Assembly: GCF_022024175.1 (NCBI RefSeq)
Contig: NZ_CP091794.1
Span: 1,302,001-1,366,000 of the forward strand
Direction: 5' to 3'
From: Prevotella communis
GTDB taxonomy: Bacteria; Bacteroidota; Bacteroidia; Bacteroidales; Bacteroidaceae
DNA length: 64,000 bases
Below are positions 45,907 through 64,000 of this stretch, in pieces (position 1 is the stretch's first letter; each line of letters starts with the position of its first letter). The notes below the pieces were generated by a model. It saw only the letters and a program-made list of their open reading frames with translations. It was not told the DNA's origin and did not search any database. The position numbers and the translations under genes were made by a program.

Positions 45907-45914
45907 CTCCTTTG

Positions 45915-48503: not shown

Positions 48504-48622
48504 CTTTTTCTTATAGTTTTAGAAATTTGCTACAAAATTACTATACAATCCCGATTTTTCCTTATGTTTTTGTTGCATAGACTTTTTAGTATGTTACAAT
48601 TGAGAAATCTCTGTATACGCGC

Positions 48623-48655
48623 GTTGGACATATTATTTTTTTTTGTTACATTTGC
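48623..48655 (+). promoter_or_regulatory. Promoter for the GH43 pair
   Basis: GTTG (48623-48626), 20 bp, TACATTTGC (48647-48655), about 38 bp before the ATG at 48693. The rest of the 190-bp divergent region holds a minus-strand -7-like TAATTTTG (48533-48540) for the GH3 gene. Confidence 0.6.
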
Positions 48656-48692
48656 ATTCGATATTATAAACATCTACCTTTAATTAAACAAT

Positions 48693-50801
48693 ATGAAGAA
48701 AACCTTAACTATTTTGACGCTAGCTGTGCCATTAATTACAGCAGCTCAAAATCCCGTGATCCGTGACCAGTTTACGGCTGACCCAACTGCGCGAGTTTTT
48801 AACGGTAAAGTTTATCTCTATCCGTCTCACGACATTCTGCCACCAGCGGGACAACGTCAGGATTGGTTCTGTATGGAGGACTATCACGTTTTCTCGTCAG
48901 AGAATCTGACTGACTGGACCGACCACGGTGTGATTGTGACTCAGAATAAGGTTCCCTGGGTAAGAAAAGACTCTTATTCTATGTGGGCTCCTGATTGCGT
49001 AGAGAAAAACGGAAAGTATTATTTTTATTTCCCATCTGCTCCTGCTGCCGGACGTGGCGGATTTGCTGTTGGTGTAGCTGTTGCCGATAGTCCAGAGGGT
49101 CCGTTTATTCCTGAACCAGAGCCCATCAAGGGTATCAATGGCATTGACCCGTGTGTGCTTCAGGCTTCAGACGGTAATGCATATATCTTCTGGGGTAATG
49201 GGCGTTGTGCCAAACTGAAGCCCAATATGAAAGAACTGGCTGACGATAATCCCAAGGAGACAGTGAAGTGGGGTAACCGTGAGATGGAAATGATTGGTGT
49301 TAGTTGCTTGAAAGATCTGCCTAATCGGCAGGCTGAGGGACCCTTCGCCTTTGAGTATAATGGCAATTATTATCTGACCTATCCTTATGTAAGAGAGAAT
49401 ACCGAGGTTCTAGGCTATGCCATGAGTAAGAATCCCATGGGACCTTACGAGTATAAGGGACTGATTATGGCAGAGCATGCCAATGGTTGTTGGACTAACC
49501 ATCATAGTATCGTGAACTACAAAGGGCAGTGGTATCTGTTCTATCATCATAATTTCTTCTCGCCCAGCGATGATAAGCGTCGCTCAGTACAGATTGAGAA
49601 ACTGTATTTCAATGCTGATGGTACCATACAGGAAGTGAAACCTACAATGCGAGGTGTTGGTATTAATAAGGCTACAGAGAAGATTGAGATTGATCGTTAC
49701 AGTAACGCTTCTCAGGGCGTGACCACTGCTCATGTGGATACAACAATTGCTTTCAGTGGTGATTATGCAACTATTCCTTCTAAGGGTTGGATGAGATATG
49801 CTGATGTGGACTTCGATTGTCTGACAGACGGTTATCTTCAGATTAGTGTGAAAGCAAGTGATGATACTGAGTTCTGTATCCGTGAAAAGAGTGCTACAGG
49901 TAAGGTCATCGCTCGCATCAAGTTGGCCGTTCGCCCACCAGAACCTACTCCTGGAGCTGCTGCCAATCCAATGATGGCTCGTTTCCGTCGTGATCAGAGA
50001 AATCAGTGGCTCACTCAGACTACAACGTTGGAGTACACACCAAAGGGAGTTACCGACCTCGTAATCACTAATGAGGGTGGGGGCGAACTCTCTGTTGACT
50101 GGATTTTGTTCAAGAACCGTCCGAAGTATTTCTCACCTGCTACTGCAACGCCTGCTAAGCCTGATAGCGAGGGATTCATACGTCGATGGACACTCTTAGA
50201 GCCTATTGATAAGCCGAATAGTGGTAACACTGTATTTACTGATACCTATCTGCGTGAGCATTTCAATCGTGAGTATTTTAAGGGGCAGCAGACGATCCTG
50301 CCTAAGGATGGTCAGAAGGTGAAGGCTGTGTTCCAGCAGGAACAGGCTCCTGCAGGATTCGGTCGTGGTGCACAGCAGATGCCGGAGGGACCGAAAGTGA
50401 AGACCGTGAAGCAGACGCTGACTTGGCATGCGCTTGATAGCGAGAACTTCAATGTGAAATTGTTCCGCTTCGCAGAGAAATGGGGCGAGAAGGTCTATGG
50501 TGTGCTTTTCTGGGGTGTGACTATTATCGACTGTCCTGAGGATATTGAGAATGTACGCTTGGCTGTTGGTTCTAACTCTGCTTCAATGTGGTGGCTCAAT
50601 GGTGACGAGGTGCTTCTGCTCTCTGGCGACCGTCGTATGGTGAAGGACGATGCCGTGTCTCACCGCTTGACCTTAAAGAAAGGACGCAACGTCCTGCGTG
50701 GTGCCATTATTAATGGCCCTGGTATGAGCGACTTCTGCGTGCGCTTCATTAACGAGAAAGGTACCCCTGTAACAAACTATTCAATCATTAATAGCAAATA
50801 A
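48693..50801 (+). CDS. Secreted GH43 enzyme with CBM6-like and extra C-terminal domain
   Basis: This 702-residue protein has a signal peptide (about 1-18), a GH43 five-blade propeller (20-320) with RDQFTADPTARVFNGKVY, YSMWAPDCVEKNGKYYFY and the catalytic Glu in RQAEGPFAFEYNG, and a CBM6-like sandwich (330-490) ending DWILFKNRPKYF. A C-terminal region (490-702) has the look of a beta-sandwich and I do not recognise it. Two low-complexity inserts occur: RPPEPTPGAAANPMMARFRR and APAGFGRGAQQMPEG. Likely alpha-arabinofuranosidase or xylosidase activity on arabinoxylan. The next GH43 starts 2 bp later. Confidence 0.92.
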   Translation: MKKTLTILTLAVPLITAAQNPVIRDQFTADPTARVFNGKVYLYPSHDILPPAGQRQDWFCMEDYHVFSSENLTDWTDHGVIVTQNKVPWVRKDSYSMWAPDCVEKNGKYYFYFPSAPAAGRGGFAVGVAVADSPEGPFIPEPEPIKGINGIDPCVLQASDGNAYIFWGNGRCAKLKPNMKELADDNPKETVKWGNREMEMIGVSCLKDLPNRQAEGPFAFEYNGNYYLTYPYVRENTEVLGYAMSKNPMGPYEYKGLIMAEHANGCWTNHHSIVNYKGQWYLFYHHNFFSPSDDKRRSVQIEKLYFNADGTIQEVKPTMRGVGINKATEKIEIDRYSNASQGVTTAHVDTTIAFSGDYATIPSKGWMRYADVDFDCLTDGYLQISVKASDDTEFCIREKSATGKVIARIKLAVRPPEPTPGAAANPMMARFRRDQRNQWLTQTTTLEYTPKGVTDLVITNEGGGELSVDWILFKNRPKYFSPATATPAKPDSEGFIRRWTLLEPIDKPNSGNTVFTDTYLREHFNREYFKGQQTILPKDGQKVKAVFQQEQAPAGFGRGAQQMPEGPKVKTVKQTLTWHALDSENFNVKLFRFAEKWGEKVYGVLFWGVTIIDCPEDIENVRLAVGSNSASMWWLNGDEVLLLSGDRRMVKDDAVSHRLTLKKGRNVLRGAIINGPGMSDFCVRFINEKGTPVTNYSIINSK

Positions 50802-50803
50802 TT

Positions 50804-52261
50804 ATGCAACGTTTACATACAATCCTGGCTGCACTGGCTATTGCATCAGCAGCCAATGCTCAAATTGGACAACCATATATTCACGACCCTTCAACACTTG
50901 CAGAGTGTGATGGAAAATACTATACCTTTGGTACAGGTGGTGGCGGTATCATCTCTGATGATGGTTGGTCTTGGCACAGTGGTGCTGACCGTCCTGGTGG
51001 CGGTGCTGCTCCCGATATGATAAAGATAGGTGATCGCTACCTGTGTATCTATGGTGCTACAGGTGGTGGACTTGGCGGTGGACATAGTGGTCGTATCCTC
51101 ACGATGTGGAATAAGACGCTTGACCCTAAGTCACCAGATTTCAAGTGGAGTACCGCTGTGGAGGTTTGTGCTTCCGACGGAATGGAAGATCAGGATGCTA
51201 TCGACCCAGGCGTATTGCTTGATCCTACGACTGGTCGTCTGTGGGTAAGCTATGGTACTTATTTCGGAACTATCCGTCTTATCGAACTTGATCCTAAGAC
51301 GGGCTTCCGCATGAAGGGTAACAAGGAAAAAGATATTGCTATCGACTGTGAGGCTACCGATCTTATCTATCGTAATGGCTGGTACTATTTGTTGGGTACA
51401 CACGGTACTTGCTGTGATGGTGTGAACTCTACCTATAATATAGTGGTGGGACGCTCACGTAGTGTGGAAGGTCCTTACCTTGATAATGTAGGTCGCGACA
51501 TGTATCATGGTGGTGGTAAGATGGTGGTCGCTGCCGGTGATCGTAAGACAGGTGCCGGACACTTCGGACGTACCATCATTGACGAGGGTATCGAGGTGAC
51601 ATCATTCCACTGGGAGGCCGACTTTGATCAAGGTGGTAGTAGTGTGCTGGCTATCCGTCCTTTGTTGTGGAAGAACGATTGGCCCTATGCTGGTGACCAT
51701 TTCAAGGGAGGCACCTTCGAGATTGAGTCAGAGCGTCGTGGCTATTCTTTGGAACTTGCTGTTGACTTCGTTCGCATGAACGTTGCACGTCGTGGCGGAT
51801 TCGGTCGCCCACAGGCTGACGCAGCTCCTCCAAAGCCTATTGAGAACCAGACTCTGGATCAGGTAAAGGGAACTTGGCCCGAGGGCGATATCGCCGTACG
51901 TTGCGGTGACTATATGTTCCGTCCTCATCAGCTTTGGACGATAACTCCAGTTAACGAGGCTGGTGGCTATCTGAGTAATTCTTATTTCAAGATTACTATT
52001 TCAGGTACAGACCGTGCACTCTGTGCTACAGCTAATAAAGAAGTAAGCACCGTGCCAACCTTTACAGGTGCTGATGAGCAGCTCTGGCGTATCGAACAGG
52101 CTGTTGATGGTACTTTCCGTATTATGCCTAAGCGTATTCCTGGTGAGACTGACGTGAACAAGAAACTCTGCCTTTATAGCATCGCGGACTCAACACCTAC
52201 ATTGGCCGAGTGGGACTTCAACTCAGATAACTCGAAATGGAATCTGAAAGAACTGAGATAA
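50804..52261 (+). CDS. Secreted GH43 enzyme with ricin-type beta-trefoil
   Basis: This 485-residue protein has a signal peptide (about 1-19) and a GH43 domain (20-320) with IHDPSTLAECDGKYYTFGTG, GGAAPDMIKIGDRYL and the catalytic Glu in AIDCEATDLIYRNGWYYL. After an insert RRGGFGRPQADAAPPKPIE, a region of about 130 residues with LWTITPVNE, EQLWRIEQAVDGTFRIMPK and SKWNLKELR resembles a ricin-type lectin half. Arabinanase or arabinofuranosidase activity is likely; the exact linkage is unknown. It is the second gene of the GH43 pair and ends at a strong terminator. Confidence 0.9.
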   Translation: MQRLHTILAALAIASAANAQIGQPYIHDPSTLAECDGKYYTFGTGGGGIISDDGWSWHSGADRPGGGAAPDMIKIGDRYLCIYGATGGGLGGGHSGRILTMWNKTLDPKSPDFKWSTAVEVCASDGMEDQDAIDPGVLLDPTTGRLWVSYGTYFGTIRLIELDPKTGFRMKGNKEKDIAIDCEATDLIYRNGWYYLLGTHGTCCDGVNSTYNIVVGRSRSVEGPYLDNVGRDMYHGGGKMVVAAGDRKTGAGHFGRTIIDEGIEVTSFHWEADFDQGGSSVLAIRPLLWKNDWPYAGDHFKGGTFEIESERRGYSLELAVDFVRMNVARRGGFGRPQADAAPPKPIENQTLDQVKGTWPEGDIAVRCGDYMFRPHQLWTITPVNEAGGYLSNSYFKITISGTDRALCATANKEVSTVPTFTGADEQLWRIEQAVDGTFRIMPKRIPGETDVNKKLCLYSIADSTPTLAEWDFNSDNSKWNLKELR

Positions 52262-52279
52262 TCAGAACGACATAAAATG

Positions 52280-52320
52280 AAAAAGGTCATTTCTCAATAG
52301 GGAAATGACCTTTTTCTTTT
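52280..52320. terminator. Bidirectional terminator between the GH43 pair and mrp
   Basis: A 14-bp perfect stem AAAAAGGTCATTTC (52280-52293) / GAAATGACCTTTTT (52302-52315) with A- and T-runs on either side. It serves both convergent operons. Confidence 0.8.
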
Positions 52321-53415
52321 TTATACTTTTACAATCTTTGTCTTGGGCAAGTCTTTGTTTCGACGGTTCACTACCGTGACAACAGCCTGAGCTAAATTGA
52401 GGAAAGCCTGACCTGTTATGGTGTCTACCTTTGTGGCAGCAGGAGCTCCCTCGTCACCACTCTCACAGATGCTTTGCACGAGTGGTATCTGTGCCAATAG
52501 GGGTACATCCATCTCTTGTGCCAGTTGCTTACAACCTTCCTTGCCGAAGATATAGTATTTGTTCTCTGGCAGTTCGGCTGGTGTAAACCAAGCCATATTC
52601 TCAATGAGACCCAGAATGGGCACGTTGACTTTCTCGTTACGATACATATCAATACCTTTGCGTGCGTCAGCCAATGCAACCTGCTGTGGCGTAGAGACGA
52701 TGACGGCACCTGTGATACTGAGTGTCTGTAGCAACGTCAGATGAATATCGCTAGTGCCTGGAGGTGTATCCAGGATAAAGTAGTCCAGTTCGCCCCAGTC
52801 GGCATCTGCAATGAGTTGTTTCAGTGCGCTTGTAGCCATACCACCGCGCCAAAGCGTTGCCGTGTCGGGATTTACAAAAAATCCGATACTAAGCAGCTTG
52901 ACACCATATTGCTCGATAGGTTCGATGAGGTCACGACCGTCTTTGTTGACAGCGTATGGACGTGCATCTTCTACATGAAACATCTTTGGCATAGATGGGC
53001 CGAAGATATCAGTATCCAGCAATCCTACCTTATAGCCCAGACGAGCCAAAGCTATTGCAAGATTGGCAGATACAGTGCTTTTGCCTACACCACCCTTACC
53101 ACTGCTGACGGCAATGATATTCTTAACTTGAGGGAGTAGTTTTTCCACTTCAGGACGAGGTTTCGACTTGAATTCTGTTTTGATAGTTACCTCTACATCC
53201 TGACCACAATGGTATTTGATGGCGGCTTCTGCTGCTTTTACGGTGGATTTTAGGAATGGGTCTGTATCACGTGGGAATACAAGGATGACCTTTACTGCCT
53301 GGCCGTTGATAGATGGGGTGTCGGCCACCATCTCACTTTCTACTAAGTTCTTTTTTGTGCCCGCATACGTCACCGTAGCAAGGGCATCCATAATCAGTTT
53401 GGGATATAAAGTCAT
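52321..53415 (-). CDS. mrp: Mrp/NBP35-type P-loop ATPase (iron-sulfur carrier family)
   Basis: This 364-residue protein has an N-terminal MIP18/DUF59 domain (1-90) and a ParA/MinD-type ATPase with the deviant Walker A IIAVSSGKGGVGKSTVSANL (about 100-120), LLDTDIFGPSMPKM and LDTPPGTSDIHLTL. The usual Cys pair (CPxC) after the ENMxxF segment is absent: the region reads ENMAWFTPAELPENKYYIFG. It therefore may not carry a cluster at the standard site. It is the last gene of trmB-LRR-mrp. Confidence 0.9.
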   Translation of the reverse strand: MTLYPKLIMDALATVTYAGTKKNLVESEMVADTPSINGQAVKVILVFPRDTDPFLKSTVKAAEAAIKYHCGQDVEVTIKTEFKSKPRPEVEKLLPQVKNIIAVSSGKGGVGKSTVSANLAIALARLGYKVGLLDTDIFGPSMPKMFHVEDARPYAVNKDGRDLIEPIEQYGVKLLSIGFFVNPDTATLWRGGMATSALKQLIADADWGELDYFILDTPPGTSDIHLTLLQTLSITGAVIVSTPQQVALADARKGIDMYRNEKVNVPILGLIENMAWFTPAELPENKYYIFGKEGCKQLAQEMDVPLLAQIPLVQSICESGDEGAPAATKVDTITGQAFLNLAQAVVTVVNRRNKDLPKTKIVKV

Positions 53416-53430
53416 TATTTTGTTTACTGT

Positions 53431-55173
53431 TTACTGTTCAACGATTTTTGCCATCTTTTTCCATGTTTTATCCTCTGCATAATTCCTTTTTGCCCCTCTG
53501 GGTACAGAGACGATACAGGTAGCCGTTACAACATTTTTGAATGAACTGCTACTGATGGAAGGAGGTATGGGTGAACTGAATGCAATCTCGCGTAATGAGG
53601 CGCATTTTGCAAAAGCATTACCGCCAATTTTCTTTAATGCTGCAGGGAATTCTATACGTGCCAATCCGCTACACTCGCGGAAGGCCGCGCTACCTATCTC
53701 TGTGCAAGCGGCAGGGATAATCATTGTAGTTAGTGAAGAACACTTCTCAAAAGCATTGTCTCCGACCTCTGAACAGGATATAGGCAGGTCGATAGCATAG
53801 AGCGAACTGCACTGCTCGAAGGCATTGTCACCTACGCCTTTGATAGAGACTGGGAGCAGTATTACACGTAATGAGTGGCAGTTGCGGAATACTCTGTCAT
53901 CCAATTTATCTACAAAGCCCTCAATATTGACGCTGTCAAGTGAGATACAATTCTCAAAGACACCGCGTCCCATTTTTTTTGTGAGTTTGGGAAGATAGAT
54001 GTTCTTCAGACTGGAGCATTGGTTGAAAGCTTCATCGTCAATCCTTGCCAAAGAAGCAGGTAACTTGATGATTTCTATAGATTTGCAATCAGCAAAAGCT
54101 CGCTTGCCAATGGTTCGGATACCATCTGGGAGAGTCACGGATGACAGACTGGTACAGCCGGAGAATGATTCCGCGCTGATGGTAGGCAGGTTGCCGTCTA
54201 TGCTAATTTCTTTTAGATTAAGACAGTTCTGAAAAGCGCCTGGTCCCATACGTTTAAGATTGTCAACTTTGAAATTCTCAAGACTGCTGCAGCCCTTGAA
54301 TGCCTCACTGCTGATGGCTGTAACCACGTTGAGTTGAATTTCGCGCAAGCTTTGGCAATCTTCGAATGCGTTGACATTAATTTCTGTGAGCACCTCTGGG
54401 AGTTCAGCAGTCTCCATGGCTGTACAACCTTTGAAAGCTTCACTTCCTATATAGGTTACAGATTGTGGCAGCGTGATACTTTTCAGATGTTCGCAACCTG
54501 AGAACAGGTTATTGTTGACACGTTTTATCTGTCCTTCTATATTGACAGTCTCCAGTGACTTACAATTATTAAAGGCAAATGCGTCGATATTCGTTACAAG
54601 TTCAGGTATATCTACGCAGGTGAGTGAGGCACAACCATCGAATGCGTGTCCTTGAAGAGACTCCAAACTCGCTGGAATCGTGATATCAGTCAAGTTCTGA
54701 CAACCACTGAAAGCATACTCTCCGATTAATTTTAGCGTTTCTGGCAACTCTACGACTTTCAGATTGATACATCCACTGAAACAGCTTCGGCCTATCTCTG
54801 TCAACGAGGCAGGCAGGACAACACGCTCCAGATCTTTGCAGTTCAAAAACATTGCCGCGGGGAGTGCTCCTGCGCGCATACGGATAGCACCTTTAGACTC
54901 AGGGATACTGGCCTCTGAGAGGTCGAGCGCCAAGAGATGATGATTACTAGCACGCTTTGGTTTTACACCTCGTCCGGCAATAGTCTGCAATAGCCTGAGG
55001 TCACTGGTATTTAGTGGACCGCAAACCTTCAGTTCTGACATAGAAAAACGAATATCGTCCGTCAGTTTACCTGCCAGTTGTCCTACGGAATCAACTTTTA
55101 CGGTAAGCTGTTGTGCTGCGCAATATGACAATTGGCAGGTCACCAATAGTATGCTTAACAGAAATCGTTTCAT
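53431..55173 (-). CDS. BspA-like leucine-rich-repeat surface protein
   Basis: From ATG 55173 the product is 580 residues with a signal peptide (MKRFLLSILLVTCQLS, cut near CAAQQ). Residues about 130-540 contain roughly 18 Treponema-type LRR units of 23 residues, each like IGEYAFSGCQNLTDITIPAS. The C-terminus (VSVPRGAKRNYAEDKTWKKM) is the usual closing unit of BspA proteins. Such proteins bind host or bacterial surfaces. An earlier in-frame ATG (55239) overlaps trmB and lacks a signal. It lies between trmB and mrp with gaps of 10 and 15 bp. Confidence 0.9.
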   Translation of the reverse strand: MKRFLLSILLVTCQLSYCAAQQLTVKVDSVGQLAGKLTDDIRFSMSELKVCGPLNTSDLRLLQTIAGRGVKPKRASNHHLLALDLSEASIPESKGAIRMRAGALPAAMFLNCKDLERVVLPASLTEIGRSCFSGCINLKVVELPETLKLIGEYAFSGCQNLTDITIPASLESLQGHAFDGCASLTCVDIPELVTNIDAFAFNNCKSLETVNIEGQIKRVNNNLFSGCEHLKSITLPQSVTYIGSEAFKGCTAMETAELPEVLTEINVNAFEDCQSLREIQLNVVTAISSEAFKGCSSLENFKVDNLKRMGPGAFQNCLNLKEISIDGNLPTISAESFSGCTSLSSVTLPDGIRTIGKRAFADCKSIEIIKLPASLARIDDEAFNQCSSLKNIYLPKLTKKMGRGVFENCISLDSVNIEGFVDKLDDRVFRNCHSLRVILLPVSIKGVGDNAFEQCSSLYAIDLPISCSEVGDNAFEKCSSLTTMIIPAACTEIGSAAFRECSGLARIEFPAALKKIGGNAFAKCASLREIAFSSPIPPSISSSSFKNVVTATCIVSVPRGAKRNYAEDKTWKKMAKIVEQ

Positions 55174-55183
55174 GTGATACTTT

Positions 55184-55948
55184 TTATTTTGCCGTTTCCA
55201 ATGAACTGCGTTTCGAACGGTGATAACTACGATAGTCATCCAATTCTATCTCTACATTTGGCTCTTCTAGGGCGCCTTCATGCGGAAGATGGAATTTCAG
55301 ATATTTGATGTTCAGTCCGCGTGCTAACCACATGGACTCATAATAGGTCTGGATAGAGGCAGCTTCAGCAAAAGCCTGATTCTCTTGCTTGTAGAGATCG
55401 TCAGTCCTTAAATCAACTGGCAGATGATTATGGTCCACCATATAGTTGGTGTAGGTAGCCAGGAAATTGGAGTCTGTCTTAAGATGAATGATTCCGTTGT
55501 CTGTGAGGAAACGACGGTAACGCTCCATGAAGTATGTGCTGCTCAGACGTTTACGTGGGTTCTTCATCTGCGGGTCGCTGAAAGTGAGCCAAATCTCCTG
55601 CACCTCATCTGGAGCAAAGAAACGGTCGATAATCTCAATGTTAGTGCGTAGAAATGCCACGTTTTTCAGGCCTTCTTGAGTAGCCTGTGTCGCACCTGTC
55701 CACATGCGTGCTCCTTTGATGTCAACGCCAATGAAGTTTATTTGCGGATAGCGCTTTGCCAATCCTACGGTGTATTCTCCCTTTCCGCATCCCAGTTCGA
55801 GTACGATAGGGTTGTTGTTCTTAAAATATTGCTCGCGCCAGTGTCCGCGCATGGCAAACGGTACATCGCTCACTACCGAATAAGGGTATTGAAAGACGTT
55901 CTCGTATGTTTCCATGTCGGCAAACTTAGCCAATTTTCCTTTACTCAT
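55184..55948 (-). CDS. trmB: tRNA (guanine-N7-)-methyltransferase
   Basis: From ATG 55948 ([12 protein letters not shown]) the product is 254 residues; a TTG six codons earlier overlaps the promoter and is rejected. The SAM-binding motif [34 protein letters not shown] and the substrate motif [17 protein letters not shown] identify TrmB, which makes m7G46 in tRNA. It heads the trmB-LRR-mrp run. A -7 TAACTTTGC is at 55963-55971. Confidence 0.94.
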
Positions 55949-55962
55949 ATGTTTATTTTTGC

Positions 55963-55971
55963 GCAAAGTTA
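55963..55971 (-). promoter_or_regulatory. -7 element for trmB
   Basis: TAACTTTGC on the minus strand, 14 bp before the ATG at 55948. No clear -33 box at the normal spacing. Confidence 0.45.
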
Positions 55972-56056
55972 CCTATTTTCTACTAATTATGACCTCGTTT
56001 TTTGATTTTTTTATTAAAATAATTTGTTGATATGCTATATATTGCTGTTTTTTTAC

Positions 56057-56064
56057 TATATTTG
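56057..56064 (+). promoter_or_regulatory. -7 element for the rubredoxin gene
   Basis: TATATTTG, 47 bp before the rubredoxin ATG. TTG boxes upstream (56023-56029) are spaced too far for a standard fit. Confidence 0.4.
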
Positions 56065-56111
56065 TAGCCGAGATAAAGTAAATTAGATGTCTAACTAAAA
56101 ACAAAACAACT

Positions 56112-56273
56112 ATGAAAAAGTATGTGTGTAATGTGTGCGGTTACGTGTATGACCCAGCTGTAGGTGATCCTGATAGCGGAATTCCCGCTGGTACTGCATT
56201 TGAAGATCTTCCTGATGATTGGGCTTGTCCTGTTTGCGGTGTAAGTAAAGAAGACTTTAGTCCAGAGGAATAA
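56112..56273 (+). CDS. Rubredoxin
   Basis: This 53-residue protein starts [19 protein letters not shown] and carries the two CxxCG loops of rubredoxin: Cys6 and Cys9, then Cys39 and Cys42 in [13 protein letters not shown]. It binds a single iron and carries electrons in the cytosol, usually to superoxide reductase, rubrerythrin or oxygen reductases in anaerobes. The stop is directly followed (0 bp) by the ATG of a D-2-hydroxyacid dehydrogenase, so the two are cotranscribed. Confidence 0.95.
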
Positions 56274-57236
56274 ATGGCAATGAAGATAGTCATTTTAGAT
56301 GGTTACTCGGCCCAGCCAGGAGATTTATCTTGGCTGGGTCTTGAGAATTTAGGCACATTGATGGTCTATGACCGTACTGCGCCTGAACAGACTGTAGAGC
56401 GGGCTAAAGACGCAGAGATAGTGCTTACTAATAAAGTTGTTATCAGTAAGGAGGTGATAGCCCAGTTACCGCTTTTGAAATATGTCGGAGTATTGGCTAC
56501 AGGTTATAATGTGGTAGATATTGAAGCGGCCCGTGAACGTGGCATCGTGGTGACGAATGTACCCGCTTATAGTACGGAGAGCGTTGCCCAGATGGTATTT
56601 GCTCATTTGCTTACTGTGATGAATCGCACAGAACATTATGCTCTTCAGAATCGTCATGGTCGCTGGAGTGCTAATCCTGATTTCTGTTATTGGGATACGG
56701 AGTTGACAGAGTTGGCTGGTAAGACCTTTGGTATTGTGGGACTGGGTAATATTGGCCGTCGTGTAGCTCAGATTGCTATTGCCTTTGGAATGAAGGTACA
56801 GGCGCTGACGAGTAAGTCGGAAACAGAGCTGCCTGATGGTGTCTCGAAAGTAGATCTCGATACGTTGTTGGCTACTTCTGATGTATTGTCCTTACACTGC
56901 CCTCTGACTGACAGTACTCGTCATCTCGTAAATAAAGAGACACTTAGCAAAATGAAACCTTCTGCTGTTATTATCAACACCGGTCGTGGACCGTTGGTTG
57001 ATGATGGGGCTGTGGCTAATGCTCTTGAAAGTGGACGTCTTTATGCTTTTTGCGCTGATGTGCTTACGAATGAACCGCCGAGTATGTCAAATCCACTTTT
57101 GATGCAGCCAAATGCGTATATCACCCCTCATATAGCATGGGCAACGAAAGAGGCGCGGATACGTTTGATACAGGTAGCTACTGATAATGTGCGTTGTTTC
57201 TTGAATGGCAACCCTCAGAATGTTGTGTCATCATAA
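56274..57236 (+). CDS. D-2-hydroxyacid dehydrogenase (SerA/HprA-like)
   Basis: This 320-residue NAD-dependent enzyme has the nucleotide-binding loop GIVGLGNIGRRVAQIAIAFG (about 150-170), NxGRGP segment INTGRGPLVDDGAVANAL with the catalytic Arg region nearby, the acidic residue in VLTNEPPS and the catalytic His in ITPHIAWAT. It resembles glycerate/hydroxypyruvate reductases and D-lactate-type dehydrogenases. The substrate cannot be fixed. It begins directly at the rubredoxin stop and ends at a strong terminator. Confidence 0.92.
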   Translation: MAMKIVILDGYSAQPGDLSWLGLENLGTLMVYDRTAPEQTVERAKDAEIVLTNKVVISKEVIAQLPLLKYVGVLATGYNVVDIEAARERGIVVTNVPAYSTESVAQMVFAHLLTVMNRTEHYALQNRHGRWSANPDFCYWDTELTELAGKTFGIVGLGNIGRRVAQIAIAFGMKVQALTSKSETELPDGVSKVDLDTLLATSDVLSLHCPLTDSTRHLVNKETLSKMKPSAVIINTGRGPLVDDGAVANALESGRLYAFCADVLTNEPPSMSNPLLMQPNAYITPHIAWATKEARIRLIQVATDNVRCFLNGNPQNVVSS

Positions 57237-57259
57237 TAATGTGGATAATTGTGAATCGA

Positions 57260-57300
57260 GAAAGGCCGTATTGCTCGAAGCAATACGGCCTTTCTCTTAT
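57260..57300 (+). terminator. Terminator of the rubredoxin-dehydrogenase operon
   Basis: A perfect 15-bp stem GAAAGGCCGTATTGC (57260-57274) / GCAATACGGCCTTTC (57280-57294) with a 5-nt loop, followed by TCTTAT. A near copy of the right arm, GCAATACGGCATTTCT, follows at 57301-57316. Confidence 0.75.
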
Positions 57301-57413
57301 AGCAATACGGCATTTCTATTCTAATGTGTTGAAATGGCGTAGGGAATGTTTGGAAGTTTTTCTTTATTTGTCTTTGGCATTTTGTATCGCAAGATTGTAT
57401 TAGTCGGTATGCC

Positions 57414-57459
57414 ATAAAAAATACCTGGCAGTATGAATAAACAGTGACTGCCGGGTATT
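57414..57459 (-). terminator. Terminator of the TM2-protein gene
   Basis: On the minus strand AATACCCGGCAGT / ACTGCCAGGTATT (13 bp, one G-U/A-C position) is followed by TTTTTTAT. It lies about 58 bp beyond the stop at 57518. Confidence 0.65.
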
Positions 57460-57517
57460 GATTATATATTATTATCGTTTTTGGAGAAGTAATTGTCGTC
57501 TAATAAGTATGCATATG

Positions 57518-57898
57518 CTATTGAGCCATCATTTCTAATGATTCTGTAACAACTCTGGTGTTTCTCTTTTTTGTTGCACCCATAATAAGGAACAGGTCTA
57601 CAATCCACCATACCCAACTTAGTATTCCACATGTTATAACTGCGGTAATGATGAAATATAAAAATTTGCATATTCCTAACACGATGTTGCCAATGAAGAA
57701 GCGGTCAATTCCTAAAGCACCAATAAATAGAGAAATAAGAAAGACAGTAAATGGATCTTTTACCTTATTGAATATTACATTAGCCATCGTTGGGTCAATA
57801 TTGTCATGAGATAGTTTTTCGGCAGCGTAAATGATACCATCTCCTGTTAATTTTGAGTTGTACTTTGAAATTAACTCATCAATTTTTTCTTTTTCCAT
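57518..57898 (-). CDS. TM2-domain membrane protein (second)
   Basis: This 126-residue protein has a soluble N-terminal part (1-48) and a TM2 domain: helix 1 FTVFLISLFIGALGIDRFFIG with the G-x-DRF turn, then helix 2 ICKFLYFIITAVITCGILSW and VWWIVDLFLIMGA. The GIDRFFIGN loop is the family hallmark. The biochemical role of bacterial TM2 proteins is not known. It has its own perfect promoter, 129 bp behind the first TM2 gene, and closes the CD225/DUF2752/TM2 cluster. Confidence 0.87.
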   Translation of the reverse strand: MEKEKIDELISKYNSKLTGDGIIYAAEKLSHDNIDPTMANVIFNKVKDPFTVFLISLFIGALGIDRFFIGNIVLGICKFLYFIITAVITCGILSWVWWIVDLFLIMGATKKRNTRVVTESLEMMAQ

Positions 57899-57937
57899 AA
57901 TTTTAAGTTGTTAGTTATACGAATAGTTTATTACTTT

Positions 57938-57970
57938 GCAAAGATAAGTTTTTTTTTTATTTCTTCCAAA
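57938..57970 (-). promoter_or_regulatory. Promoter for the second TM2-protein gene
   Basis: On the minus strand TTTG (57967-57970), 20 bp, TATCTTTGC (57938-57946), 40 bp before the ATG at 57898. Confidence 0.75.
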
Positions 57971-58027
57971 TTTTTGAATAAAAAAATAGTGTTTGTCAAT
58001 AAGGTGAATCTTTTTTGCATTATAAAA

Positions 58028-58363
58028 TCACATAAAAGAGTTGAGGATTTTTTTTGCGTTTATTTTTTTAGTCCTGTCCTTAACTGTAAACCAGTCAGTA
58101 ACTCCCCATATTAAGCAACCTCCGCAAGTGCAGAATTTGAGAATTGCTAAACCGATATCTCCGAGATAAAGTCTATCCCATCCAAAGGATATTGATATAA
58201 TTGATAAGAGAAATGCTGTCGTTGGACTTTTTAAATTGGAAAACGCAGATTCTCCAGCACCTTCGTCAACGTTTGCTAGGCGTTCGCGAATTTTATCAAA
58301 AGAATCAGTTGCTATTTTTTCTTTATTTGCGGTTAATATTTTTTCAATTTGTTCTTGTGTCAT
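58028..58363 (-). CDS. TM2-domain membrane protein (first)
   Basis: This 111-residue protein has a helical N-terminal region (1-45) and a TM2 domain with TTAFLLSIISISFGWDRLYLGD, LAILKFCTCGGCLIWGVTDWF. The FGWDRLYLG turn is a variant of the family's DRFYLG. It resembles the TM2 protein encoded 129 bp downstream in layout but the two differ in most residues. It is 35 bp after the DUF2752 gene. Confidence 0.87.
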   Translation of the reverse strand: MTQEQIEKILTANKEKIATDSFDKIRERLANVDEGAGESAFSNLKSPTTAFLLSIISISFGWDRLYLGDIGLAILKFCTCGGCLIWGVTDWFTVKDRTKKINAKKILNSFM

Positions 58364-58398
58364 AATCTAATGTTTTAGGAGTTAATAATAATTGTGTT

Positions 58399-58788
58399 CT
58401 AAATATGTAGAATGTTTCTGACTATCATCCAGCAGGGAGCGAGGATTGCTAATGTATAAATTACGAATTTGCTTTCGATAACTTTTCGGATCTTTTTTTG
58501 CATATTTCCTCTTAAAACCAGTCTTTCTAGATAGAAAAGTGCTAAATATGGAATTAGTATTATAAGCATGTAGTTGTAACTGAATGCTTCCAAGAATCTA
58601 CCATGCATAAATGCGTGAAGAAATCTTTGCATGCCACATCCCGCGCAGTTCCAGCCTGTAAATCTATGGATAATGCATTTTGGAGCAAATGATGTTTCAA
58701 CTGGGTTGAAAAAATATAGCATTGCAAGCACAACTACTGTTGCGCTTGCAATGGCATATGCAATTATTTTTTTCTTTTTTGCATTCAT
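58399..58788 (-). CDS. DUF2752 membrane protein
   Basis: This 129-residue protein has three membrane helices (about 9-28, 70-90, 107-125). Between the first two lies the DUF2752 signature: PKCIIHRFTGWNCAGCGMQRFLHAFMHGRFLEAFSYN in positions about 35-71, with Cys38, Cys49 and Cys52 (CAGC) and the family's G-C-GxxR pattern. Function unknown; the Cys cluster could bind metal or be redox-active. It directly abuts the CD225 gene before it (0 bp). Confidence 0.87.
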   Translation of the reverse strand: MNAKKKKIIAYAIASATVVVLAMLYFFNPVETSFAPKCIIHRFTGWNCAGCGMQRFLHAFMHGRFLEAFSYNYMLIILIPYLALFYLERLVLRGNMQKKIRKVIESKFVIYTLAILAPCWMIVRNILHI

Positions 58789-59112
58789 TTATGAGAGCAT
58801 GGCAAGTCCATATAATGAATAGTAAATCAAGGTCACAATAATACCTATGGCTAATAATATTGAACTGACAATGTTTAGGGTCTTGATTGTATTGGAAGTC
58901 TCTTGTGCGGGAATAATGCCTAATTCTCCCATAGTAAGACTTCTGTTTAAATCACTAGCTTTTGAAAGTGCAATAATAGACAGAAATAAACTGATAATAC
59001 TTGTGCACGTACAACAGCAAAAAATGATTGAGAATACAAGATTAATAATAGACCAAACCTTATAATCATCAGGTCGTATAATATTTTTTGTTCCTTGATG
59101 CTCGTATTCCAT
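58789..59112 (-). CDS. CD225/dispanin-family membrane protein (second)
   Basis: From ATG 59112 the product is 107 residues (MEYEHQGTKNIIRPDDYKVW). It has the CD225 arrangement: a short cytosolic N-terminus, DYKVWSIINLVFSIIFCCCTC with membrane-proximal Cys residues, SIIALSKASDLNRS, and a second helix (about 78-100). It is a clear paralog of the protein encoded 49 bp upstream. An open frame extends 24 codons further up but overlaps that gene. Dispanins act at membranes; bacterial roles are unknown. Confidence 0.87.
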   Translation of the reverse strand: MEYEHQGTKNIIRPDDYKVWSIINLVFSIIFCCCTCTSIISLFLSIIALSKASDLNRSLTMGELGIIPAQETSNTIKTLNIVSSILLAIGIIVTLIYYSLYGLAMLS

Positions 59113-59161
59113 AAATAATGAACTTATTATGATAATGTATGTGCTATTTTCGCTAATAGCC

Positions 59162-59497
59162 TTAATGCTGCATGGCCTCGGCAATGCCTGCTATGCCCCA
59201 AATAAGCATATAAACAATGTCTATGGCGAAGTTTACTGCCAAAAGGATAGAACTGATGATGTTGAGGGTCTTAGCTGTCTTTGAGGCATCCTGTGCTAAT
59301 ATGGCAGATGATTCACCCATCATATTATATTTGTTGACATCATTTGATTTCATGAGGGCGATAATTGACAGCACGAGGCTGGCAATAGACAAGCATTGAC
59401 AGCAAAAGAGGATAGATATCACCAAGTTTACTATAGACCAAACCTTGTAGTCTTTTGGCTGTGGTACAAACGTATTTTCTTGATTATTGTATTCCAT
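59162..59497 (-). CDS. CD225/dispanin-family membrane protein (first)
   Basis: This 111-residue protein starts MEYNNQENTFVPQPKDYKVW and shows DYKVWSIVNLVISILFCCQC, SIIALMKSNDVNKY and a second hydrophobic helix (about 80-104). This is the two-helix CD225 fold of interferon-induced transmembrane proteins, a family known also in bacteria. It begins 20 bp after the ilvE stop and opens a run of five small membrane-protein genes. Confidence 0.87.
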   Translation of the reverse strand: MEYNNQENTFVPQPKDYKVWSIVNLVISILFCCQCLSIASLVLSIIALMKSNDVNKYNMMGESSAILAQDASKTAKTLNIISSILLAVNFAIDIVYMLIWGIAGIAEAMQH

Positions 59498-59517
59498 AAA
59501 TTCTATTTTAATGGTTA

Positions 59518-60534
59518 TTACTCAATGACTACATTCGTCCAACCGTGCTTGTCTTCGATCTCGCCATACTGGATGCCACGCAGAGTGTCATACAGCTTCT
59601 TGGAGATTGGACCAGGCTGATCGCCGAATGAATAGCGCTTGCCCGAGTCAAGGTCATCTATATATGAAATAGGTGAGATAACAGCTGCTGTTCCGCATGC
59701 ACCAGCCTCCTCGAAAGTTTCCAGTTCCTCTTCAGGAATCTGGCGACGCTCAACCTTCAGGCCTAAGTCTTCAGCCACCTGCATCAGTGAACGGTTGGTG
59801 ATAGAGGGTAGGATAGAGGTTGACTTTGGTGTCACGTATGTGTTATTCTTAATACCAAAGAAGTTGGCAGCGCCGCACTCGTCGATGTATTTCTTTTCCT
59901 TGGCATCCAGATAGAACTCGCAAGCATAACCCTTCTCATGAGCCAGATTGTTGGCAAAGAGACTGGCTGCATAGTTTCCACCTACCTTATATTTACCAGT
60001 ACCCAAAGGAGCACTGCGGTCATAATCACGAACGATGACGTATGGATTGCTTGAGAAACCACCCTTGAAGTATGGGCCTACGGGTGTTACGAAAATCAGG
60101 AAGCAATACTCCTTGGCGGGATGTACGCCTACCTGTGCGCTAGTACCAATCAGCAGAGGACGGATATACAGTGTCGCACCACTCTCATAGGTGGGAATCC
60201 ACTCCTGATTCAGACGAACTACTTTGTTAACCATCTCGGTGAACAGTTCTGTGGGAACCTCGGGCATCATGATACCACGACAGGTTGACTGCAGGCGCTC
60301 AGCGTTGTCCTTTACGCGGAATGTGCGTACCTTACCATCTTTACAGCGGTATGCCTTCAAACCTTCGAAAGCCTCCTGTCCGTAGTGCAGACAGGTTGCT
60401 GCCATATGCAGCTTCAGATACTCGTCAGAACATACTTCAATTTCTCCCCACTTGCCGTCGCGATAATAGCAACGGACATTGTAATCGGTCGGCCTGTAGC
60501 CGAAGGAAAGGTTTTTCCAGTCTAGGTCTTTCAT
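59518..60534 (-). CDS. ilvE: Branched-chain amino acid aminotransferase
   Basis: This 338-residue PLP enzyme (fold type IV) transfers amino groups to the keto acids of valine, leucine and isoleucine. It shows YGQEAFEGLKAYR, the Lys in the segment VGGNYAASLFANNLAHEKGY region, and YIDECGAANFFGIKNN, the class-IV signature. It is 40 kb away from ilvDBN. It has its own promoter and is followed after 20 bp by the CD225 genes. Confidence 0.95.
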   Translation of the reverse strand: MKDLDWKNLSFGYRPTDYNVRCYYRDGKWGEIEVCSDEYLKLHMAATCLHYGQEAFEGLKAYRCKDGKVRTFRVKDNAERLQSTCRGIMMPEVPTELFTEMVNKVVRLNQEWIPTYESGATLYIRPLLIGTSAQVGVHPAKEYCFLIFVTPVGPYFKGGFSSNPYVIVRDYDRSAPLGTGKYKVGGNYAASLFANNLAHEKGYACEFYLDAKEKKYIDECGAANFFGIKNNTYVTPKSTSILPSITNRSLMQVAEDLGLKVERRQIPEEELETFEEAGACGTAAVISPISYIDDLDSGKRYSFGDQPGPISKKLYDTLRGIQYGEIEDKHGWTNVVIE

Positions 60535-60562
60535 TTTCTCCTATTTAGTTTATGATTTTAGT

Positions 60563-60595
60563 GCAAAGATAGGCATATTTCTTATAACATGCAAG
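60563..60595 (-). promoter_or_regulatory. Promoter for ilvE and possibly the CD225/DUF2752/TM2 run
   Basis: On the minus strand CTTG (60592-60595), 20 bp, TATCTTTGC (60563-60571), 28 bp before the ilvE ATG. Confidence 0.65.
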
Positions 60596-60600
60596 TTTTT

Positions 60601-60780
60601 CTATCTTTTTTCTAAAATTTTCTTGATTTCTGAATCTGTTTTGTATAATTTCTCTTTACATTGTGTAATGAGTTGTTGTGCCAACGTCAGTTTATCGGCC
60701 AGTTGGTCGATGCTATAGCTGCCGGCTTCCATCTGTCGGACGATATCCTCCAGTTGTTTCAGTGCTTCTTCGTAGGTCAT
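60601..60780 (-). CDS. xseB: Exodeoxyribonuclease VII small subunit
   Basis: ATG 60780 to TAG 60601 encodes 59 residues starting MTYEEALKQLEDIVRQMEAG and including SIDQLADKLTLAQQLITQC, the two-helix pattern of XseB. It is the regulatory or binding partner of XseA. Its start overlaps the xseA stop by 4 bp. The stop falls 9 bp before the ilvE -33 box. Confidence 0.92.
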   Translation of the reverse strand: MTYEEALKQLEDIVRQMEAGSYSIDQLADKLTLAQQLITQCKEKLYKTDSEIKKILEKR

Positions 60781-61946
60781 TTTACTATAGATATGATTGT
60801 GCCTTGTTCCAGGCGGGTTTCTAATTCTGTTCCAGGTTTCACTTCTGCGGCATTCCGTAGTAGATGCCCGTTGTGTAGGGTGATGCTGTAGCCGCGTTTC
60901 AACAGTAGGGCTGGGTCAAGTGCTTTTGCTCTCTGCTCCAGCATTTCCAACTTATGTTGCTCGCGCTCTAAAAGGTGGAAAATGAGTGGTGAGAGATAAG
61001 AGGACAGTTTGTCGATACGTGCTTCTTCGCGTGTCTTTAACAGTGAGAAGAATGTGTTGATACGCTCACCACAAGTGTCAATGCGCAGAGCGGTGCTGTC
61101 TAGATGAGAAATGAGCAGTTGCGCAGCTGCAGTAGGTGTCTTCACTCGCGTGTTGCTCACCATATCAAGGATGGATTCATCGCGGTCGTGTCCAATGCCT
61201 GTGATGATGGGTAGGGGGTATTGGGCTACGTTTTCTGCTAATTGCAGGGCATCGAAGCCCGACAGGTCTGCTGTAGCACCACCTCCTCGTATAATCACGA
61301 CGCAATCAAAGGCAGATGCCTGTTGGTTCGCGCATGAATTGTAAATGGCATTGAGTGCCTGGATAATGCTCTCTTCTACCTGTTCACCTTGCATGATAGC
61401 GGGAAAGAGCTGGGTATGGAAATCATAAGGCGAGTCGGCCAGTTGGTTGACAAAGTCACCATAGCCAGCAGCAGACTGACTGGAGATGACAGCGATATTG
61501 AGGCAAAAAAGCGGTAGTGTCAGATCTTTCTGCAGGTCAAAGATGCCCTCTTCTTTGAGTTGACGGATGATTTCCTGTCTGCGTCGTGCCATATCGCCCA
61601 ATGTGAAGGTGGGGTCGATATCGGTGATAATCCAAGAAAAACCGTATGCTTCATGAAACTGGGGATAAACTTGTAGCCTCACTTTCAGTCCGGCATGAAG
61701 TGGCTGACCTGTGGTTCGTTCGAAATAAGGACCTATCATACCCCATGTGCTTTGCCAGCATTTGGCTGAGGCTCGCGCTATGGGCGTGTTGCTATGTTCT
61801 TCTTTCTGAATGAGTTCCATAAAACAATGGCCTCTGTTCTCTCTGCATTCAGATAGTTCTGCTTCGACCCAGTATTCTTGGTTCATGGTGTGCTCAATGG
61901 ACTGGCGCACCATGCTGTTGAGCTCTAAGAGTGAATAAGCGTCCAT
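60777..61946 (-). CDS. xseA: Exodeoxyribonuclease VII large subunit
   Basis: This 389-residue nuclease has an N-terminal OB fold (MDAYSLLELNSMVRQSIEHT, VEAELSECRENRGHCFMEL) and the catalytic domain with IAVISSQSAAGYGDFVNQL, CVVIIRGGGATADLSGFD and ITGIGHDRDESILDMV. It is shorter than E. coli XseA (about 456), mainly through a reduced coiled-coil region at about 300-350. The enzyme degrades single-stranded DNA with XseB. It starts 14 bp after the subtilisin gene. Confidence 0.95.
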   Translation of the reverse strand: MDAYSLLELNSMVRQSIEHTMNQEYWVEAELSECRENRGHCFMELIQKEEHSNTPIARASAKCWQSTWGMIGPYFERTTGQPLHAGLKVRLQVYPQFHEAYGFSWIITDIDPTFTLGDMARRRQEIIRQLKEEGIFDLQKDLTLPLFCLNIAVISSQSAAGYGDFVNQLADSPYDFHTQLFPAIMQGEQVEESIIQALNAIYNSCANQQASAFDCVVIIRGGGATADLSGFDALQLAENVAQYPLPIITGIGHDRDESILDMVSNTRVKTPTAAAQLLISHLDSTALRIDTCGERINTFFSLLKTREEARIDKLSSYLSPLIFHLLEREQHKLEMLEQRAKALDPALLLKRGYSITLHNGHLLRNAAEVKPGTELETRLEQGTIISIVK

Positions 61947-61960
61947 GATATATCGTGGAA

Positions 61961-63361
61961 TTAATGGGTTCGGTTGTTGTTATAAGCCTGACGGAAATTA
62001 GGAATACCATAGCCCAGAATGTTGGTTGGCTCATGATATTGATTGGCACTGCGTCGTACAATCTCCATGATTTCTGATGCGGTTTTCTCTGGTAGTGCTT
62101 GCCATAAACATGCCACCAATCCGCAGATCAGCGGAGTCGAAAACGATGTTCCCATGTCGTGTACCAATGTGCCTCTTCCTGATAGTAATACGGTGGGGGC
62201 GCCTTGTGCTACTACATCGGGCTTGATACGTCCGTCTTGAGACGGGCCAATGCTTGAGAATGCAGCCAAAAGGCGGTTCCTGTCAATAGCTCCAACAGTC
62301 AGGATGTTGTGAGCATCTGCAGGTACACTGATCTTCTTCCACTGTCCCATACCAGAGTTGCCAGCGGAATTGCAGAGAATCATGCCTTTCTGAGCCAACA
62401 GGGAGGCGGAGCGTGAGATGAATGCCGTTTGTCCGTCTAAATCCTGAAGACGATAATTGCCTTGCCCGTTCTCAAAGGCATAGTAGCCCAAGGATGAATT
62501 GATGATATCGGCTCCTAATGAGTCTGCCATTTCTACAGCCATCGTCCAATAGTCCTCTTCTACAGGCTGTTCGGTGAGTGGGTCCTCACACCGCAATAGC
62601 CAGTAGGAGGCTTCTGGTGCTGTGCCAATAGTGACCTCTGGCGCATAGGCTGCCATTGCGGAAAGAACCTTTGTTCCGTGGTCAATACTCTCAAATGCGC
62701 CATATTTTTTGTCTTCTCGTGGCTTAATGAAATCGTGCGTGCCAAGGATATTGGTTCTTTTAAAGGCAGGGATGCGTTTATAGTTCTGAAAACCACCGTC
62801 TAGTACGGCAATGGTAATGCCTTTACCTCTGTATCCCATCTCATGCAGAAAGATACCTTCCAACGTTTCAATTTGCTGACGGGCCATGCCGTATGGGTCG
62901 TTTTTCACGGAGTCCCAGCGATTGAAGTCCTCGTGCACATTCCAACGGATGTCTCCTGGGTGTTCGATTGAGTCGGGTGAGACAAATACGCATGTGCTCT
63001 TCCTGACGATAGACAGTGTGTCGAGGCTAGCCAACAACAGTGAGTCGGAAGAACTTGCGAGTATTGTGTTCTGCCATCTGCTAGTACCAATAATGTGAAT
63101 TCCTTTTCTGTGGAATTGCCTGATATACTGTTTGCATACGGGCAGGTCAGTGGAATCAACGCTCAGGCCTTGGCGTTGACGTCTCTCCAGACTTTTCTGG
63201 GACAGGAATTGTAAGGGTTGGTCCAACGTAAATTCCGTTGACGCTTTGTCAATGAGCGCATAGCGGTAGATGAAGGTCTTTTTTCCTGGATATTTTATTT
63301 TTGCTGCAAACATCGTAAAGCTCCATAGGAGTACGATTAGAAAGCATGTCGTTTGTTTCAT
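61961..63361 (-). CDS. Secreted subtilisin-like serine protease (S8)
   Basis: This 466-residue protein has a signal peptide (about 1-19), a propeptide-like region (20-165) and the S8 catalytic domain. The triad is Asp188 in IAVLDGGF, His228 in IDHGTKVLS and Ser406 in GTSFSTPL, with the oxyanion Asn335 in SAGNSG. It is likely exported to the periplasm or outside. No type 9 secretion tail is evident. It is cotranscribed with xseA-xseB, with no functional link apparent. Confidence 0.92.
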   Translation of the reverse strand: MKQTTCFLIVLLWSFTMFAAKIKYPGKKTFIYRYALIDKASTEFTLDQPLQFLSQKSLERRQRQGLSVDSTDLPVCKQYIRQFHRKGIHIIGTSRWQNTILASSSDSLLLASLDTLSIVRKSTCVFVSPDSIEHPGDIRWNVHEDFNRWDSVKNDPYGMARQQIETLEGIFLHEMGYRGKGITIAVLDGGFQNYKRIPAFKRTNILGTHDFIKPREDKKYGAFESIDHGTKVLSAMAAYAPEVTIGTAPEASYWLLRCEDPLTEQPVEEDYWTMAVEMADSLGADIINSSLGYYAFENGQGNYRLQDLDGQTAFISRSASLLAQKGMILCNSAGNSGMGQWKKISVPADAHNILTVGAIDRNRLLAAFSSIGPSQDGRIKPDVVAQGAPTVLLSGRGTLVHDMGTSFSTPLICGLVACLWQALPEKTASEIMEIVRRSANQYHEPTNILGYGIPNFRQAYNNNRTH

Positions 63362-63381
63362 GATGTGTCATCTTATCGGTT

Positions 63382-63414
63382 GCAAACTTACATAAAATTT
63401 TTGAAACAGCCAAA
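63382..63414 (-). promoter_or_regulatory. Promoter for the S8 protease-xseA-xseB operon
   Basis: On the minus strand TTTG (63411-63414), 20 bp, TAAGTTTGC (63382-63390), 21 bp before the ATG at 63361. Confidence 0.75.
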
Positions 63415-63428
63415 TCTTTGTTGTAAGT

Positions 63429-63461
63429 TTTGGTTGTGTCAGAAAAAAACATTACCTTTGC
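63429..63461 (+). promoter_or_regulatory. Promoter for the MATE exporter gene
   Basis: TTTG (63429-63432), 20 bp, TACCTTTGC (63453-63461), 10 bp before the ATG. It is divergent to the protease promoter, with -33 boxes 14 bp apart. Confidence 0.75.
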
Positions 63462-63471
63462 AACTTGAATT

Positions 63472-64000
63472 ATGGATAATAAACAGAAAGCATTAGAACT
63501 AGGTCAGAAGCCTGTTGGGCAATTGTTGTGGCAGTATGCCTTGCCTGCAATGGTGGCAATGGTGGCCAGTTCGCTGTATAATATCATCGACCGTTCGGTT
63601 ATCGGACAAGTGGTAGGCCCTGAGGCTATCGCTGGTCTGGGTATCACTTTCCCCTTTATGAACCTGAGTGCTGCTTTTGGCGCAGCCGTAGGTGTGGGCG
63701 CATCAACGTGTATCAGTGTGAAATTAGGACAGCGTGATTATGCTACAGCTCAGCATCTGCTTGGTAATACGGTAACGCTGAATACCATTGTGGGCTTCCT
63801 GTTCATGGCAGTCAGCCTGATATTCCTTGATCCGATTCTTCGTTTCTTTGGTGCGTCTGATGTTACATTGCCTTATGCCCGTGAGTTCATGCAGGTCATC
63901 CTCTTGGGAAATATGGTGACCCACATGTATTTTGGTATGAATGCCGTGTTGCGTGCAGCGGGAAAACCGCGCCATGCCATGTATGCAACGTTGTTCACCG
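63472..64000 (+). CDS. MATE family multidrug exporter (partial, C-terminus off the right edge)
   Basis: The first 176 residues run from MDNKQKALELGQKPVGQLLW to the window end without a stop. They show the MATE N-lobe pattern: QYALPAMVAMVASSLYNIID at the first helix, GPEAIAGLGITFPFMNL, and GVGASTCISVKLGQRDYA with the conserved loop. Four or five helices are included. MATE proteins export drugs or organic cations by H+ or Na+ exchange. The rest of the gene lies outside. Confidence 0.92.
   Translation, partial: MDNKQKALELGQKPVGQLLWQYALPAMVAMVASSLYNIIDRSVIGQVVGPEAIAGLGITFPFMNLSAAFGAAVGVGASTCISVKLGQRDYATAQHLLGNTVTLNTIVGFLFMAVSLIFLDPILRFFGASDVTLPYAREFMQVILLGNMVTHMYFGMNAVLRAAGKPRHAMYATLFT

Follow-up and report, generated by a model that had tools for sequence, protein, structure and literature searches.

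The protein families that meet at the locus described here are known ones. The dispanins, or CD225 proteins (PF04505; IFITM, PRRT1), have been proposed as the ancestors of the animal IFITM proteins, which act against virus fusion in animals. The TM2 family (PF05154) includes the animal TM2D1-3 and Almondex proteins, and the link with Notch signalling belongs to these animal members. DUF2752 was named neither as such nor as PF10825 in the open-access literature searched (subscription papers being outside the search), "TM2 domain" and CD225 appeared together in the same literature only in a study on birds, and no open-access report of dispanins in phage defence was found. The system formed by these families can provisionally be considered as apparently undescribed in the searchable open literature.

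The window, i.e. the whole stretch of 64,000 nucleotides of Prevotella communis DNA that was analysed, carries five consecutive minus-strand genes for membrane proteins behind ilvE. The order CD225, CD225, DUF2752, TM2, TM2 and the gaps reported in a preliminary description of the sequence were recovered by the ORFs and by Pfam. The gaps are 20 bp between ilvE and CD225-a, 49 bp between the two CD225 genes, 0 bp between CD225-b and DUF2752, 35 bp between DUF2752 and TM2-a and 129 bp between the two TM2 genes. The genes are the following:

59518..60534, minus strand: ilvE (class IV aminotransferase), the anchor gene; Pfam Aminotran_4, 112 bits
59162..59497, minus strand: CD225-a, the putative resident dispanin, 111 aa; Pfam CD225, 40.1 bits
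58789..59112, minus strand: CD225-b, the second dispanin, 107 aa, which opens the putatively replaced block; Pfam CD225, 29.1 bits
58399..58788, minus strand: DUF2752, a three-helix membrane protein and the predicted hub, 129 aa; Pfam DUF2752, 67 bits
58028..58363, minus strand: TM2-a, 111 aa; Pfam TM2, 49.0 bits
57518..57898, minus strand: TM2-b, 126 aa; Pfam TM2, 28.3 bits, marginal over the cut-off of 27.9

The five proteins all exceeded the Pfam gathering cut-offs (27.1 bits for CD225, 27 for DUF2752 and 27.9 for TM2). Like the described dispanins, CD225-a and CD225-b have a two-helix layout and a double cysteine (C32 C33 in both) within the first hydrophobic helix; this pair is 95-97% conserved among 62 CD225 relatives neighbouring DUF2752 and was already noted in bacterial dispanins (PMC3282796). 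The profile of these CD225 neighbours matched PRRT1 in the PDB with an E value of 5e-15. The window proteins differ from IFITM and PRRT1 in that they are bacterial and stand in an operon with DUF2752. They are also clearly similar to the CCC motif membrane proteins of NCBIfam NF040945, which likewise adjoin DUF2752, and should be regarded as relatives and not as members of that family since their scores (34.7 and 21.8 bits) lie below its cut-off of 65. TM2-a and TM2-b possess the DR-aromatic/L-xxG turn of the TM2 family between their helices, here of the form DR-x-x-x-G (WDRLYLG in TM2-a, IDRFFIG in TM2-b), and are distinguished from the animal members by their bacterial N-terminal region and their DUF2752 partner. 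The DUF2752 protein matched PF10825 over the full profile (positions 1-49 of 49) and contains the CxxCGxxR motif. The idea that CD225 and TM2 could be distant homologues was unsupported, the profile comparison of the two families giving no match. Of TM2 and Pfam-CD225 genes the genome (3.55 Mb, single contig) has no more than two each, and these four are all located within this 2 kb.

The neighbourhood of the three families was surveyed in 148 Bacteroidota genomes, a neighbour being defined as a gene within 1.5 kb. DUF2752 was present in 82 of these genomes, TM2 in 86 and Pfam-CD225 in 3. A TM2 gene was found beside 57/93 DUF2752 genes, always on the same strand, for which the chance probability is ~1e-144 by a simple binomial; a CD225 or CCC relative was found beside 18/93, again always on the same strand. 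By the family models 19/93 had neither partner, several of these adjoining DUF4234, DUF4870 or a weak CD225. Reciprocally, DUF2752 adjoined 58/103 TM2 genes, 16/18 NCBIfam CCC_membrane (CD225-like) matches above the cut-off, 4/4 Pfam-CD225 matches and 21/25 genome-wide matches of a purpose-built CD225 profile. As this profile was made from the 62 DUF2752-neighbour CD225s and is hence biased towards DUF2752 adjacency, the Pfam and NCBIfam counts take precedence. The labels of the local scan agreed with Pfam in 50/62 rows for CD225 and in 51/51 rows for TM2. DUF2752 is a genomic hub: its neighbour, on the same strand, is a small protein with two helices that belongs to either CD225 or TM2, families unrelated to each other, and in the window it adjoins both. 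Among the 93 DUF2752 genes, the window is the only case in which both TM2 and CD225/CCC were recognized by the Pfam and NCBIfam models.

Within the genus, 15 of the 16 sampled DUF2752 loci had a partner: CD225-DUF2752-TM2 in this order at 9 loci, CD225 only at 2, TM2 only at 4 and neither at 1. All three families at one locus were seen in this genus alone, one partner type per DUF2752 being usual outside it. A second sample consisted of 31 genomes of mixed phyla, taken from chance matches to a DNA pattern, and 15 of them encoded DUF2752. CD225 was located directly 5' of it in Rhodococcus, in Actinomadura and, behind a zinc ribbon, in Christensenella, and TM2 adjoined it in Streptomyces, Mycobacterium and Myxococcales. 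CD225-DUF2752 or TM2-DUF2752 pairs being confirmed by Pfam in Actinomycetota, Bacillota and Myxococcota, both links cross phyla. It is therefore almost certain that the three families are genomically linked. The preliminary description had placed them in one system, had proposed gene-order comparison as the check and had named co-occurrence confined to one lineage as the sign against it. Across Bacteroidota both adjacencies are far above chance and the pairwise links extend to other phyla, whereas the three-family form was seen in the genus alone, which partly agrees with that sign. A DUF2752 partner beside most of the examined Bacteroidota CD225 genes, and in other phyla too, provides a first concrete handle on bacterial dispanins.

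In an alignment of 75 DUF2752 sequences, C38, C48, C51 and G52 are invariant and R55 is 93% conserved, defining the motif C-x9-C-P-x-C-G-x-x-R; the CxGC motif pointed out earlier is present as C48-A-G-C51. The AlphaFold2 model of the window protein (mean pLDDT 94.4) is built of three long helices, the first two of them separated by short ones, and the CxxC lies at the N-terminus of helix 49-61. This model found no PDB fold with an E value below 1 and no match among viral models; the model of CD225-a was weak (pLDDT 69). The distribution of positive charges (positive-inside rule, the sole basis for the topology) predicts that the cysteine loop is periplasmic. A CxxC at a helix N-terminus is shared with the thiol-disulfide oxidoreductases; as DUF2752 differs from them by the absence of a known oxidoreductase fold, it is not filed as an oxidoreductase and is only proposed to work alike. 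Through its three invariant cysteines and its confident model, which resembles no solved structure, DUF2752 makes its pair with CD225 experimentally approachable.

The reading which we favour, at a probability of roughly 0.45, is that the cluster specifies an accessory inner-membrane complex around DUF2752 with a predicted periplasmic thiol site. CD225 and TM2 would be accessory subunits of one DUF2752 membrane complex, and the GYF_2 or zinc-ribbon domains carried by some of their relatives ahead of CD225 or TM2 would likely serve as cytosolic adaptors. The working site would be the C-x9-C-P-x-C-G-x-x-R motif facing the periplasm, its CxxC opening a helix as in thiol oxidoreductases, and the complex might maintain envelope proteins, or control their quality, in a thiol-dependent manner. 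That the DUF2752, CD225 and TM2 proteins form one membrane complex is probable, and the best-supported statement is that the genes make up a single accessory membrane system centred on DUF2752. The thiol-dependent upkeep role, suggested by the invariant cysteines, the CxxC at a helix start and the DUF4870-containing sister operon described below, is put forward tentatively. Cassette genes separated by just 0-5 bp, as in an operon, were found. Furthermore, the CD225 tree and the DUF2752 tree divide alike into two clades with strong support, and in the relative with two pairs (L215) each CD225 adjoins the DUF2752 of its own clade. Such clade-matched pairs are consistent with the pattern expected of interacting partners, which linkage alone can also yield. 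Against the favoured reading speak the 19/93 DUF2752 genes with neither partner, the three-family form seen in one genus alone and the patchy distribution given below.

A sister operon, TM2-DUF2752-DUF4870, was identified in L020, L024, L029, L045 and L101. In the one fully read case (L101:1670-3629) it is followed by an M48 peptidase (Pfam 110.6 bits), and an apparent M48 peptidase lies behind DUF4870 in L015, which has this operon type as well. This arrangement would fit thiol upkeep of the envelope, without being a proof of it. DUF4870 and the protein-import family Tic20 (Tic20/HOTT) are related, and relatives of DUF4870 act in protein targeting (PMC11628618). The same five operons and the M48 genes are thus also compatible with protein targeting proper, in which DUF2752 and its partners would hold or move membrane proteins without thiol chemistry, DUF4870 and M48 being alternative partners. 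We consider this unlikely, as the window cluster is devoid of DUF4870 and M48, the M48-bearing operon is a minority form, the L101 DUF4870 remains below the Pfam cut-off (20.5 vs 25) and the invariant cysteines of DUF2752 would be left without explanation. Two other arrangements were observed. A DUF4234-like three-helix gene, a further alternative partner, overlaps the DUF2752 start in L009, L017 and L032, and L095:316-2863 contains four successive CD225 genes, several with a GYF_2-like N-terminal region, then one DUF2752 and an ECF-sigma-like gene.

The fate of the junction between ilvE and trmB was followed in 73 loci of the genus, picked by ilvE-region similarity so that the counts are not population frequencies; the ilvE portion of the query had a DNA match in 189 of 200 genus genomes. 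The junction was empty at 28 loci and occupied by the CD225-DUF2752 cassette at 9, by DUF975-like genes at 16, by DUF805-like genes at 3 and by other genes at 16, and the last locus was a contig end (one example of each junction gene family was checked with Pfam). At this junction the block is a cassette that some genomes possess and others lack. Its commonest form (4 loci) is ilvE-CD225-DUF2752-TM2-TM2 with a single CD225; two CD225-DUF2752 pairs in tandem occur in L215 and two CD225 genes in L274. At species level the distribution is patchy (96/199 family genomes), indicating that the cassette is dispensable. The spot itself (L214-L281 in the relatives, 55966-59518 in the window) is a small-cargo site, and its DUF975-like, DUF805-like and CD225-DUF2752 cargoes are all small multi-pass membrane proteins. 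Beside trmB, the window carries at 53431-55239 a gene for a BspA-like leucine-rich-repeat protein which is 83% identical in the nearest relative.

The search for promoters by pattern matching highlighted two sites:

60564..60594, minus strand: Bacteroidota-type ilvE promoter, TTG-N20-TATCTTTG
57939..57970, minus strand: exact -33/-7 promoter before TM2-b, TTTG-N20-TATCTTTG

A site similar to the first one precedes ilvE in six relatives, as judged by pattern match. Exact TTTG-N20-TATCTTTG sites number 10 in the 64 kb, both strands included, against ~0.6 expected under a first-order Markov model. The 20 bp gap, the promoter ahead of ilvE, the lack of any terminator-like site between ilvE and the cluster and an ilvE-trmB gap of just a few bp in some genomes devoid of the cassette are consistent with the ilvE promoter probably serving the cassette too. 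The suggestion that the cluster may borrow this promoter agrees with these data, the co-transcription being predicted from sequence. The perfect promoter previously attributed to TM2-b was found again as an exact match at 57970-57939. A conserved promoter proper to TM2-b was rejected, only L215 having one there among the relatives.

The window was then compared with its nearest relative, G482, and a single segment interrupted the collinearity:

57,250-59,162, no strand: replaced or hypervariable segment, from CD225-b to just past TM2-b, the sole break in collinearity with G482

With the exception of these ~1.9 kb, window positions 44100-64000 (19.9 kb) are collinear with G482 at 88% DNA identity. 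At the stop codon of CD225-a the sliding DNA identity, ~82% before it, gives way to sequence that can no longer be aligned, and GC3 falls from 48% in CD225-a, a value like that of ilvE, to 29% in CD225-b. With 32.5% GC against a median of 48.5%, a stretch of 1.5 kb in the segment is the poorest in GC of the whole window. Protein identity to G482 amounts to 99.7% for ilvE, 97.2% for trmB, 89% for CD225-a, 61% for DUF2752, 50% for TM2-a and 45% for TM2-b. G482 has a single CD225, 87% identical in DNA to CD225-a, and is without the second copy. We infer from these data that the distal CD225-DUF2752-TM2 divergence reflects replacement by recombination, CD225-a being resident and the rest having been swapped for a version with its own CD225; the comparison is that of one genome pair, in which either lineage may have changed. 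Faster evolution of the cassette genes also appears to contribute to the divergence, the TM2 branches of the tree being long. The duplicated pairs reported earlier have to be read differently from each other. CD225-a and CD225-b are 53% identical and straddle the putative recombination break; as both identity and GC3 break at the CD225-a stop, they would be a resident gene and part of a replaced block rather than paired partners. TM2-a and TM2-b (32% identical) are indeed paralogous, and belong to separate clades which are also kept side by side at other loci, so that this pair appears to consist of two old clades retained together. A recent tandem duplication of TM2 was ruled out by the tree and by the 32% identity.

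The sharp divergence of the cassette between otherwise collinear genomes constitutes a natural experiment on selection for it, and could reflect an arms race. The cluster would then be an envelope immunity cassette which, IFITM-like, renders the inner membrane resistant to the entry of phage DNA or to toxins by which neighbours attack membranes. The presence or absence of the cassette at one chromosomal spot (9/73 loci), the sharp bounds of the 1.9 kb divergence inside 20 kb at 88% identity, the stacked CD225-DUF2752 pairs of L215 and the kinship of the CD225 family with IFITM are in favour of this possibility, as is the restriction of influenza in human cells by mycobacterial IFITMs (PMC4488726). 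We nevertheless judge it quite improbable. None of the roles proposed in the preliminary description (membrane stress, lipid handling or phage entry) found support in particular. PADLOC models matched the five proteins in 0 families at E values up to 1, no mobile or defence genes were seen adjoining the cluster, and the broad distribution as a two-gene pair resembles that of housekeeping genes. Moreover, at another site (L084/L089/L094) the cassette is only moderately more divergent than its flanks, suggesting that it is this site or lineage, and not the system, that is hypervariable.

The five genes could also be without any joint function, weakly constrained small membrane genes having gathered behind ilvE where they use its promoter. 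The DUF975-like (16) or DUF805-like (3) genes at the same junction elsewhere, the low GC and the long TM2 branches would agree with this. There is little likelihood in it, given an adjacency far above chance, always same-strand, cross-phylum and at many unrelated sites, the invariance of the DUF2752 cysteines and the clade matching of the CD225-DUF2752 pairs. Finally, it seems highly improbable that bacterial dispanins are obligate DUF2752 partners in a recombining envelope-immunity cassette and that IFITM owes its antiviral role to descent from such a bacterial complex for membrane defence.

The genome encodes a second DUF2752 copy, which a more sensitive CD225 profile revealed to adjoin a weak CD225-like gene (L102:1378-4662; G000:C1:1102977-1106261). 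At this locus the CD225-like gene (78 aa) lies upstream of DUF2752, a gene farther up encodes a protein of 395 aa which starts in a TIR-like manner and includes a formylglycine-enzyme-like stretch, and a 465 aa six-helix protein is encoded downstream; it is possibly a signalling or defence locus.
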